From: Pseudomonadota bacterium
Lineage (GTDB): Bacteria; Desulfobacterota; Desulfobacteria; Desulfobacterales; Desulfolunaceae
Reading direction: 5' to 3'
Assembly (NCBI GenBank): GCA_018818835.1
Contig: JAHIRD010000145.1
Coordinates: forward strand, 1-64,000
DNA length: 64,000 bases
Shown piece after piece: positions 22,559 through 25,894 of this stretch; within the stretch, counting starts at the first letter, position 1; each line of letters opens with the position of its first letter. The notes under the pieces are model-generated. The model saw only the letters and a list, made by a program, of their open reading frames with translations, did no database searches and was not told where the DNA came from. The position numbers were made by a program, and so were the translations under genes.

Positions 22559-23263
22559 TCAGTCCCTGTCACCCAGAAGCCGCAAAAGCATCAGAAACAT
22601 ATTGATAAAATCAAGATAAAGAGCAAGCGCCCCCATAATTGCACCTTTCCGAATGGTCCCACCATCAAGGTCCGCCGGTTGGGAAAGTGCCATGTGCTTG
22701 ATTTTCTGGGTATCATACGCTGTCAGGCCAATAAATACAATCAAACCCACATAAGTAATAATCATTTCCATGGCACTGCTTCGTAAAAAGATGTTAACCA
22801 CAGACGCAATGATGACCCCGATAAGCCCCATGACCATAAAACTTCCCATGGATGTAAGATCACGCTTGGTGATCATCCCATAAACACTGCACGCTCCAAA
22901 CGTTGCAGAACAGACAAAGAAGGTGGAGAAAATGGACGCATGGGTGTAAATCAAAAAAATCGGCGCCAGAGTTGCCCCGTTCAGTGCTGCATAAAAAAGA
23001 AAAAGTGTCGTGGCTGTCCCAGCCGATAATTTACTGATACGGGCACTTAAATAAAAAACAAATCCCAACTCAGCGATAATCATACCAAAAAAGAGTATTT
23101 TGTTTCCCAGAATAATTCTTGAAAGGGTATCATTCGTGGCCACGGTATAAGCCAAAAGGCCTGTAATAGCGAGACCAATAGTCATCCAGTGAAACACATT
23201 CAGCACAAAGGCATTGACGTGAGCCTGGGTTCTTGATTGACTGACCGAACTTGTGTTAATCAT
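22559..23263 (-). CDS. Bax inhibitor-1 (YccA/YbhL) family membrane protein
   Basis: The 234-residue protein has seven hydrophobic segments and the BI-1 family signatures, with VFHWMTIGLAITGLLAY near the N-terminus and TAYDTQKIKHM plus GALALYLDFINMFLMLLRLLG at the C-terminus. Bacterial members are inner membrane proteins linked to pH-dependent Ca2+ leak (BsYetJ) or to FtsH control (YccA). The start is upstream of the long N-terminal polar stretch. A decayed copy of its last third lies at 23897-24050 (see that entry). Confidence 0.92.
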   Translation of the reverse strand: MINTSSVSQSRTQAHVNAFVLNVFHWMTIGLAITGLLAYTVATNDTLSRIILGNKILFFGMIIAELGFVFYLSARISKLSAGTATTLFLFYAALNGATLAPIFLIYTHASIFSTFFVCSATFGACSVYGMITKRDLTSMGSFMVMGLIGVIIASVVNIFLRSSAMEMIITYVGLIVFIGLTAYDTQKIKHMALSQPADLDGGTIRKGAIMGALALYLDFINMFLMLLRLLGDRD

Positions 23264-23398
23264 TATTCCTCCGAAATATTGTGTTGTTTGGGTTGTATTG
23301 AAATAAATTTATGAACGTTTTTATTGTAGTATCCATATTGGTTTCATATAAAATAACACATAAATTGATAAATTCAAGAAATACCGACGAAATATAAA

Positions 23399-23671
23399 AT
23401 GAAACAAGACGAAATATACCGCCACCTCAAAGACCTTGCCGAAAATCTGGGCATACGTTTTGCTGAAAAAAATTTCAGAAACGCCGGAATCCCCGTGAAC
23501 AGCGGTTTATGTAAAATTGAAGGCGTGTTTCATTTTTACATGGACAAACATAAAAGACCCCGCGAGAAAAACGAAATCCTTGCAAACACATTGTCACAAT
23601 TTCCCCTTGATGACATTTATATAATACCCGCCTTAAGAGAATTCATTGATCAACATAACGATCAGGGATGA
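23399..23671 (+). CDS. Small unknown protein
   Basis: This 90-residue soluble protein has balanced composition and a plausible alpha/beta pattern (DEIYRHLKDLAENLGIRFAE, then VNSGLCKIEGVFHFYMDK). No family is recognised. It ends with DDIYIIPALREFIDQHN. The frame is preceded by an AT-rich promoter-like stretch and its stop codon TGA overlaps the left terminal repeat at 23670-23688. It lies divergent to the BI-1 gene. Real gene likely, function unknown. Confidence 0.65.
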   Translation: MKQDEIYRHLKDLAENLGIRFAEKNFRNAGIPVNSGLCKIEGVFHFYMDKHKRPREKNEILANTLSQFPLDDIYIIPALREFIDQHNDQG

Positions 23672-23797
23672 TGGCGTCGTAAAAAATTTTATATATTGTT
23701 TTTGAAAGATGCCTCTCTGATGGCCATCCATTAATGAAACTCAAACCTTACCTAAAATCGGTTGCGGCATGGGATGAGTGTGTAGCGGTGTAAACAT

Positions 23798-23817
23798 GGG
23801 CACGGCGCGCCGTGCCC
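23798..23817. repeat. Perfect 20-bp GC-rich palindrome
   Basis: GGGCACGGCG followed directly by its reverse complement, then CTAC. It stands out strongly from the AT-rich surroundings. This style of palindrome is common as a dispersed intergenic repeat in many bacteria, and could be a REP-like unit brought in with the block. Confidence 0.8.
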
Positions 23818-23896
23818 CTACAAAATACGAATGTTTTTGCTCAATAGAAGGAGAGGGCAAATCAATAAAAACGTAAGCAAACAACCTATATCATGA

Positions 23897-24050
23897 ACCC
23901 AAAAGCCGCAAAAGCATCAGAAACATATTGATAAAATCGAGATAAGGAGCCAACGCACCCATAATTATACCTTTCCGTATTGTCCCACCATCAAGGTCTG
24001 CCGGTTGGAAAAGGGCCATGTCCTTTATTTTTTGGTATCTTACGCTATAA
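23897..24050 (-). pseudogene. Decayed copy of the 3' end of the BI-1 family gene
   Basis: Bases 23897-24050 align almost throughout with 22571-22725, the C-terminal part of the intact BI-1 gene in the same orientation. Read on the minus strand it encodes the same C-terminal residues up to an early stop (RLLGS-stop in place of RLLGDRD-stop). One base is missing near 24037-24040 relative to the gene, giving a frameshift. The rest of the gene is absent. It is a remnant of a duplication or of capture by the surrounding block. Confidence 0.88.
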
Positions 24051-24140
24051 ATTCATTAAACTCCGCCATATTCTACGTTTTGAGTGGACGCGGTGGACTT
24101 TGTGGACAATGGGTTTAAAAATATCATCTCAACGCCCCTT

Positions 24141-24275
24141 ACTTGAACTGCGAGGAATCAATTAACAGCTATAACGCTTATATTATACAAACTAAAATTT
24201 ACATAACTTGAACTGCGAGAACGGAATGGACTGCTTCAACGCTTATATTATGTAAACTAAAGTTTACATAATATA
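24141..24275. repeat. Two tandem 65-bp repeats with terminal hairpin
   Basis: Unit one (24141-24205) and unit two (24206-24270) both start ACTTGAACTGCGAG and end in a TTTACATA segment, with a diverged centre. In unit two the end is a perfect inverted repeat: 15-bp arms 24244-24258 and 24261-24275 around AA. It does not match the attC core-site consensus of integrons. The rest of 24276-24499 shows no gene. Confidence 0.75.
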
Positions 24276-24499
24276 CATTATCGGACGTTGTATTTGGGGT
24301 GAAGTGCTGTGGTTGTAAGGTTTGGTTTTACGAGGCATGTTGTGTTTTGAAAAGAACAAACACATCTTTGGTCCCACAAAAAAACAATCTTTCTGGGCAC
24401 AGAATTTTTTACGACGCCATCTGATTGATTATTTCAACATGTTTTCTCTTACATATTGAATGGTGCATGCATCTGTGCTAGATTATAAAGTTTCATAGG

Positions 24500-25894
24500 A
24501 TGTATGATAACGAAAGGCGGGGTCATTTGCATTGGCAGGAAAACAAAACACGGGCGATGATATACAGCGTTTCAGGTCTGACGTCTGAAATCAAGACCCA
24601 TCTTGAGGACAAATATCCCTTTGTCTGGATTCAGGGCGAGATATCCAATTTGAGCAGGCCGTCATCCGGTCATATGTATTTTACATTAAAGGATTCAAAG
24701 TCCCAGATATCTGCTGTTATCTTTAAGAACCTGGGTTATCACTTAAAATTTGCCCTTGAAAACGGTTTGCAGATCACGGGCCTGGCCCGATTGAGTGTGT
24801 ATGAACCCCGTGGAACCTATCAATTAATTTTTGAGCATTTGGAACCCAAAGGTGCTGGAGCCCTCCAGCTTGCCTTCGAACAACTCAAAGCACGACTGGC
24901 ACAGGAAGGTCTTTTTGACCAACGCCATAAAAAAAGTCTACCTTTTTTTCCTAACCGAATCAGTGTAATCACGTCCCCTTCCGGTGCTGTGATTCATGAT
25001 ATCATCCATGTTCTTGGCAGACGATTTCCCAACGTCATCCTTGAAATCGTTCCCGTGAAAGTCCAGGGTGAACATGCCGCGAATGAAATTGAAGCTGCCC
25101 TTTTAATCGTCAATCAAAGAAAAAATTCGGACCTTATTATTATTGCCCGTGGTGGAGGTTCACTGGAAGATCTTGCGCCATTTAATACAGAACGTCTGGC
25201 CCGGGCTGTTTTTTCTTCAGAAATCCCCGTTGTTTCAGCCGTGGGCCATGAAACCGACTTTACCATATGTGATTTTGTGGCTGATTTCAGAGCCCCTACC
25301 CCTTCAGCGGCAGCAGAGCAGGTGGTTCCGTTAAAACAGGACCTTGTTCAGCGGATAAACGGCCTGTCCCTCATGCTTAAAAACGGCATGAACAATCAGA
25401 TGACCCACAAAAAAAACATACTGGAACGTATCTGTAAAGCCATGGTGGACCCCAAACGAAAAGTGATTGATTTGCGGCTTTTAAATGATGATCTGACCCA
25501 ACGGCTTATTCGGGTCATTGGAAATAAAATGTCCCACCAACGATCCTCCATGGCCTGGAAAAAAGAAAAATTACTGATGGTCAGCCCACAGAATAGAATC
25601 AGTACCCATAAAAAGACCCTGGGTCTTTGGAAAGACAGTTTATTATCGTCAACCCGATATATCATGAATCGAAAGACCATGGACTTAAGAGAGCACCATG
25701 GTCGACTTCAGGCTCTGAACCCCTTGTCCATTTTGGATCGTGGTTACAGCATCACACGGACCATCCCAAATGAAGAAATTCTTAGGGCTTCAGATCGTGT
25801 ATCGTTGGGCCAGGAACTCGAAGTTATTTTATCCAAAGGCAGGCTGATCTGCAGCGTGAAAGGAATACCGGACAATGGCAAAGAAAAATTTTGA
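24500..25894 (+). CDS. xseA: Exodeoxyribonuclease VII large subunit
   Basis: With XseB it degrades single-stranded DNA from both ends. The protein (464 residues from the ATG at 24500) has an N-terminal OB-fold (VWIQGEISNLSRPSSGHMYFTLKD), then the catalytic region with FPNRISVITSPSGAVIHDI, ARGGGSLEDLAPFN, AVGHETDFTICDFVADFRAPTPSAAAE, and a helical C-terminus with LDRGYSIT. The start is uncertain: TTG at 24527 lies downstream of an AAAGG stretch and the ATG at 24557 matches many homologues. It overlaps xseB by 20 bases. Confidence 0.95.
   Translation: MYDNERRGHLHWQENKTRAMIYSVSGLTSEIKTHLEDKYPFVWIQGEISNLSRPSSGHMYFTLKDSKSQISAVIFKNLGYHLKFALENGLQITGLARLSVYEPRGTYQLIFEHLEPKGAGALQLAFEQLKARLAQEGLFDQRHKKSLPFFPNRISVITSPSGAVIHDIIHVLGRRFPNVILEIVPVKVQGEHAANEIEAALLIVNQRKNSDLIIIARGGGSLEDLAPFNTERLARAVFSSEIPVVSAVGHETDFTICDFVADFRAPTPSAAAEQVVPLKQDLVQRINGLSLMLKNGMNNQMTHKKNILERICKAMVDPKRKVIDLRLLNDDLTQRLIRVIGNKMSHQRSSMAWKKEKLLMVSPQNRISTHKKTLGLWKDSLLSSTRYIMNRKTMDLREHHGRLQALNPLSILDRGYSITRTIPNEEILRASDRVSLGQELEVILSKGRLICSVKGIPDNGKEKF

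Follow-up and report, generated by a model that had tools for sequence, protein, structure and literature searches.

The 752-bp block at 23670-24421 of the window, the whole 64,000-nt stretch of DNA that we analysed, is very probably not a mobile unit but an orf90-xseA intergenic region that carries a dif-like site and has become swollen by repeat debris, with left-end remnants from a MITE family at its two ends. The earlier note had proposed a non-autonomous mobile element here, and that proposal divides into two parts. The ends do belong to a family of such elements, whereas the 752-bp unit does not stand, as it has neither a target site duplication (TSD) nor the body of a MITE and encloses a dif-like site that most simply belonged to the locus already. 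This site, at 24261-24288, is a feature that the earlier note overlooked.

Contents of the block

The features of the region, with their coordinates in the window and their strand, are as follows.

22559-23263, minus strand: BI-1 family gene (Bax1-I; Pfam PF01027, E 8e-61), source or paralogue of the fragment inside the block
23399-23671, plus strand: orf90, a conserved small gene beside dif, with homologues at 24 of 30 dif loci
23670-23688, plus strand: left 19-bp end, a solo MITE left end without body (arm comparison, end survey)
23792-23848 (block 123-179), no strand assigned: GC-rich palindromic dispersed repeat of a separate family, with many matches elsewhere in the genome
23897-24046, minus strand: decayed duplicate of the BI-1 gene's 3' part (88% identity)
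24141-24270, plus strand: two 65-bp tandem units (82%), each with a XerD-like arm at its end (repeat comparison)
24183-24193, plus strand: extra XerD-like arm, 2 mismatches, orientation opposite to dif as listed (arm scan)
24196-24206, plus strand: extra XerD-like arm, 1 mismatch, in the orientation of dif as listed (arm scan)
24248-24258, plus strand: extra XerD-like arm, exact, orientation opposite to dif as listed (arm scan)
24261-24288, minus strand: dif-like site, with the order XerC arm, centre, XerD arm on this strand (pattern, gaps of relatives, comparison with Geobacter dif)
24403-24421, minus strand: right 19-bp end, a second solo MITE left end without body (arm comparison, end survey)
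24470-24485, plus strand: CATCTGTGCTAGATTA, possible xseA promoter outside the block, picked out by eye and common to the region upstream of xseA in G001
24500-25894, plus strand: xseA, exonuclease VII large subunit (Pfam PF02601, E 2e-97)

As a description of what the block holds, the earlier note was accurate. The two 19-bp arms are indeed exact inverted repeats, 100% complementary over their length with 714 bp between them, and matches to the 19-mer at up to 3 mismatches number two in the window against 0.02 expected in shuffles. The block contains no intact gene, the longest listed open reading frame inside it being 61 aa, and an Rfam search of 23300-24700 returned no structured RNA match. 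The overlap of one end with the stop codon of the small gene at 23399-23671 is also real, since the left arm starts with the GA that follows the T at 23669. Both the tandem repeats and the GC-rich palindrome are present inside the block, the latter as part of its own dispersed family.

The piece of the BI-1 gene is likewise present and is a decayed second copy of the nearby gene. Over 150 bp (block 228-377) it is 88% identical to 22571-22721, with one frameshift but otherwise in frame, and it ends at a stop codon of its own (LLRLLGS* vs LLRLLGDRD*). At the three codon positions the differences number 4, 3, and 10, which hints at a period in which the copy still coded.

A candidate dif site between orf90 and xseA

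A shared motif was first noticed on reading the orf90-xseA gaps of seven relatives. In the window it is the 28-mer AGTTTACATAA TATACA TTATCGGACGT, as listed, and each of the 19 relative loci that cover the gap (L061-L072 and L074-L080) has it within 3 mismatches of the query. We consider that the candidate dif at 24261-24288 most likely acts as the XerC/XerD site of chromosome dimer resolution, an identification drawn from sequence, copy number, position, and GC skew, for which the support is good but indirect. The pattern AGTTWACATAANNNNNNTTATNRGAC occurs in 87 of 146 Desulfobacterales genomes, once in 83 of these 87 and twice in the remaining four (G017, G110, G130, and G132, as read from the table), and there is one copy in the window's own genome (G000; 6.75 Mb, 334 contigs). 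The reversed control of this pattern gave a single match across all 146 genomes. Counting against the identification, the exact pattern is absent from 59 of the 146.

In structure and copy number the site resembles the dif sites of Proteobacteria as presented in the available part of a published survey, which are 28 bp long, have a 6-bp centre flanked by an 11-bp XerC arm and an 11-bp XerD arm, and occur as a single copy on each chromosome (PMC2731167). The survey places such sites close to the switch in GC skew. Read on the opposite strand, the window 28-mer agrees with the dif of Geobacter sulfurreducens, as given in the table of that survey, at 24 of 28 positions. Concerning position, the one-contig chromosome of a member of the same family (G003) switches skew at 1.66-1.76 Mb and carries the site at about 1.707 Mb, judged from 20-kb samples; in another genome (G055) the unevenness of the skew kept a switch from being located, and at 24 kb the profile of the window itself shows none. 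The one Desulfobacterales entry in the tabulated part of the survey, that of Desulfotalea psychrophila, differs from the site described here, being another sequence that lies 78 kb from the skew point (PMC2731167), and in the accessible portion of a second study this species is named among the genomes set apart in the predictions (PMC3025954). A dif-xseA neighbourhood goes unmentioned in the available part of the survey (PMC2731167), and our search of an open-access library for a Deltaproteobacteria dif site together with XerD and chromosome dimer resolution found nothing.

Deeply diverged members of the Desulfobacterales have the site within or next to the orf90-xseA gap. At 30 dif loci drawn from the 87 pattern-bearing genomes, xseA stands beside dif at 26 and orf90 at 24, and at least one of glmM, BI-1, orf90, and xseA is present at 29, with none at L230. 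The orientation of dif relative to orf90 and xseA is constant at every readable locus except L079 (G005), where dif starts at 1447 on the minus strand and is inverted relative to both genes. At the locus of G001, which belongs to the same family as the window's genome, a 414-codon open reading frame sits between dif and xseA (L074) and looks by eye like a class I methyltransferase. No match to orf90 was found in Pfam, NCBIfam, or PDB. By xseA, the nearest named relatives of the window are Desulfobacterales MAGs with 43-59% identity over the best segment; relatives align to the protein from about residue 21, so its true start is probably near 24557. A sequence similar to the possible xseA promoter, TGTGCTAGATT, was seen among the gaps of relatives.

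As the dif-like site between the two ends occupies the same gap in the relatives examined, the ends did not bring the middle of the block with them, and that middle is most simply ancestral to the locus.

What sets the window's site apart is the tandem repeat next to it. The repeat boundary falls at the junction of the XerD arm and the central hexamer, and the extra XerD-like arms lie at -78, -65, and -13 from dif. The scan of dif loci (L229 being the window, and L226-L228 duplicates of L074, L078, and L076) showed elsewhere no extra arm of 0 or 1 mismatch within 200 bp of dif; seven of the other loci have one or two extra arms with 2 mismatches. We suggest that the 65-bp repeat arose as a local duplication next to dif, one that would have ended at the junction of arm and hexamer. 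It is unlikely, though worth considering, that the repeat and its inverted arms are instead the scar left by a former occupant of dif, either a filamentous phage or an integrative element that used Xer. Such a history would suit the three arms, which alternate in orientation and have 2, 1, and 0 mismatches, the best two being of a quality absent from the other scanned loci, and it would suit the position of the repeat boundary, but the gap holds no gene of such an element, the genome contains no further copy of the 65-bp unit, and slippage or illegitimate recombination produces tandem repeats as well.

A MITE family and an IS1182-like element with the same ends

The earlier note suggested looking for further copies of the ends and for an intact relative with a transposase, and both exist; the absence of any second copy, which the note had named among its grounds for refutation, is not what was seen. 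The 16-mer GATGGCGTCGTAAAAA is present in G000 in 155 exact copies (84 + 71) and in 224 copies when one mismatch is allowed, against none for the reversed 16-mer. A survey of 80 stretches of this genome and the window covered 88 distinct exact copies. A right end can be recognised for 64 of these, another 13 have a body but no right end that could be found, and 11 are solo ends; the last group includes both ends of the block.

The consensus built from 32 copies gives a complete MITE of 151 bp, which folds back on itself from end to end. Its TSD is 6 bp, exact in 25 of 48 full-length copies and matching at five or more of the six positions in 35 of 48, where 500 rounds of flank shuffling averaged 6.2 copies and never exceeded 13. 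The target hexamer begins with A in 44 of the 48 and ends with T in 45. The 151-bp family thus has the terminal inverted repeats (TIR), TSD, shortness, and high copy number of a MITE, although no autonomous partner was found in G000 or in G001. Across the order, 88 of 146 Desulfobacterales genomes have the end motif GATGNNNTCGTAAAAAGTC, and one genome has 202 exact end motifs. The motif is constant apart from the three bases after GATG, which differ from genome to genome and also from one end of an element to the other. Symmetric short forms also occur in G000, as shown by a 92-bp element (L106:2087-2178, contig C202) whose ends are both of the left type.

The 151-bp family resembles the prokaryotic MITEs described in the accessible part of earlier work, among them the Methanosarcina MITEs paired with an IS1182 element, which are likewise short, palindromic, and geneless, with IS-like ends, TSD, and many copies (PMC3852290). 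Set against that same account, the present family is distinguished by its 6-bp TSD of the form A....T, the three variable bases in its TIR, and the 202 exact motifs in a single genome. A search of an open-access library for MITEs of Desulfobacteraceae or Desulfobacter found none.

The intact relative is a 1.9-kb IS found elsewhere in the order, whose ends carry the same motif. In G077 a 1893-bp copy with the ends GACAGCTTCGTAAAAAGTC and GACACGCTGGTAAAAAGTC has AACCTT on both sides and lies beside a weak ISNCY match; at this place (L146:21-2052) the IS and a MITE follow each other head to tail, with AACCTT between them and at both outer flanks. Thirteen distinct near-complete copies were compared, and in 12 of them both ends were found 1.87-1.92 kb apart at up to 4 mismatches per end; these 12 comprise six with an exact 6-bp duplication, one with an 8-bp repeat, and five without an exact one. 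Transposases of the IS1182 family have DUF772 and DDE_Tnp_1_6 domains, and all three IS transposases analysed for domains have both. IS1182 is also the nearest NCBIfam family, at 121-161 bits, which is below its cut-off of 270. Terminal inverted repeats are a further feature that the IS found here has in common with the IS1182 family. In the available part of a study of IS1272, that element is reported to replace a stem-loop without TSD (PMC5678879), whereas six of the 12 paired copies here have a 6-bp TSD.

Because the intact IS shares both ends and TSD length with the MITE family, an IS1182-like transposase would be expected to move that family. From this agreement we infer that such a transposase may have moved the MITEs of G000. 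Matches to it are present in 24 of the 146 genomes of the order, with none in G000 or G001. Among the 15 genomes that have 50 or more end motifs, 2 carry it (read from the tables), as against those 24 of 146 overall, so the presence of the IS lends no support to a link with MITE number. Two other candidate partners were rejected: the ISNCY transposase (NF033593) has no match in G000 or G001 and its above-cut-off loci elsewhere lack the ends, and none of the five DDE_Tnp_1 (PF01609) matches in G000 is flanked by paired ends.

History of the ends and meaning of the locus

The terminal inverted repeats of the block are those of a known family of transposons. The block's flanks, AGGGAT and TGATTG, agree at one of six positions, so that no target duplication surrounds it, and as a query against its own genome it returned pieces only and no second 752-bp unit. 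Nor did the relatives offer an empty site, their gap holding the dif-like site of the interior. A rival reading, which we consider highly improbable, takes the block for a present or former transposable unit of which both ends are left ends: a long MITE, or the IS shortened by deletion, would have inserted in the orf90-xseA gap, and its TSD would since have decayed. The ends are correctly oriented and identical over 19 bp, a symmetric element of 92 bp does exist in this genome, and the pairing of two solo ends is not what chance would give; set against this are the dif in the same gap of relatives, the missing TSD, and an interior that resembles IS copies and their transposase only at chance level, on which count a deletion derivative of the IS was rejected.

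The inward pairing of the ends needs to be read with care. With 155 ends in the genome, chance would give 0.67 pairs that face inward within 752 bp, so pairing alone proves nothing, whereas for solo ends the expectation is 0.01. Both ends of the block also carry ATT after the 16-mer, as no other exact copy in G000 does. Given the unexpected solo pair and the shared ATT, the two ends are probably related, and we do not claim that they arrived independently.

A serious rival for the history of the ends, plausible though not the reading we favour, is that one solo end arose beside dif and was then copied or inverted across it by local rearrangement, perhaps mediated by Xer, which would give the two a shared origin in a block that never transposed. 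That both ends are solo and share an ATT seen at no other exact copy fits this course, and so do the inverted XerD arms beside dif and the inversion of dif relative to the same genes at L079. It fits less well that CAATCA, before the right end, departs from the A....T target form to which AGGGAT, before the left end, conforms, and that the sequences flanking the two ends are not linked by any longer stretch of homology. The verdict on a single transposable unit is the same under either history. In the reading of the block as an intergenic region filled with debris, the two 19-bp arms would be body-less relics of the MITE left end, one on each side of dif, and it is the left one that now completes the orf90 stop codon. 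Where stray ends are as abundant as in this genome, a block bounded by matching terminal repeats is not thereby proved to be a mobile unit.

What we regard as worth keeping from this locus is the linkage of dif to xseA together with the MITE/IS family, for which TIR and TSD definitions are now given and whose motif reaches 88 of the 146 genomes. In the part of a published study available, E. coli without exonuclease VII shows added over-replication at the terminus (PMC6393302). The locking of dif to xseA across much of the order could conceivably reflect a selected partnership, with exonuclease VII encoded where forks meet, and the three extra XerD arms here might alter Xer loading or trace a past Xer-using element; we offer this as a tentative and rather doubtful idea. 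The gene neighbourhood of the candidate dif is now fixed for the Desulfobacterales, which provides a good candidate dif for an order whose entry in the published proteobacterial survey, as far as its available part goes, looks doubtful.
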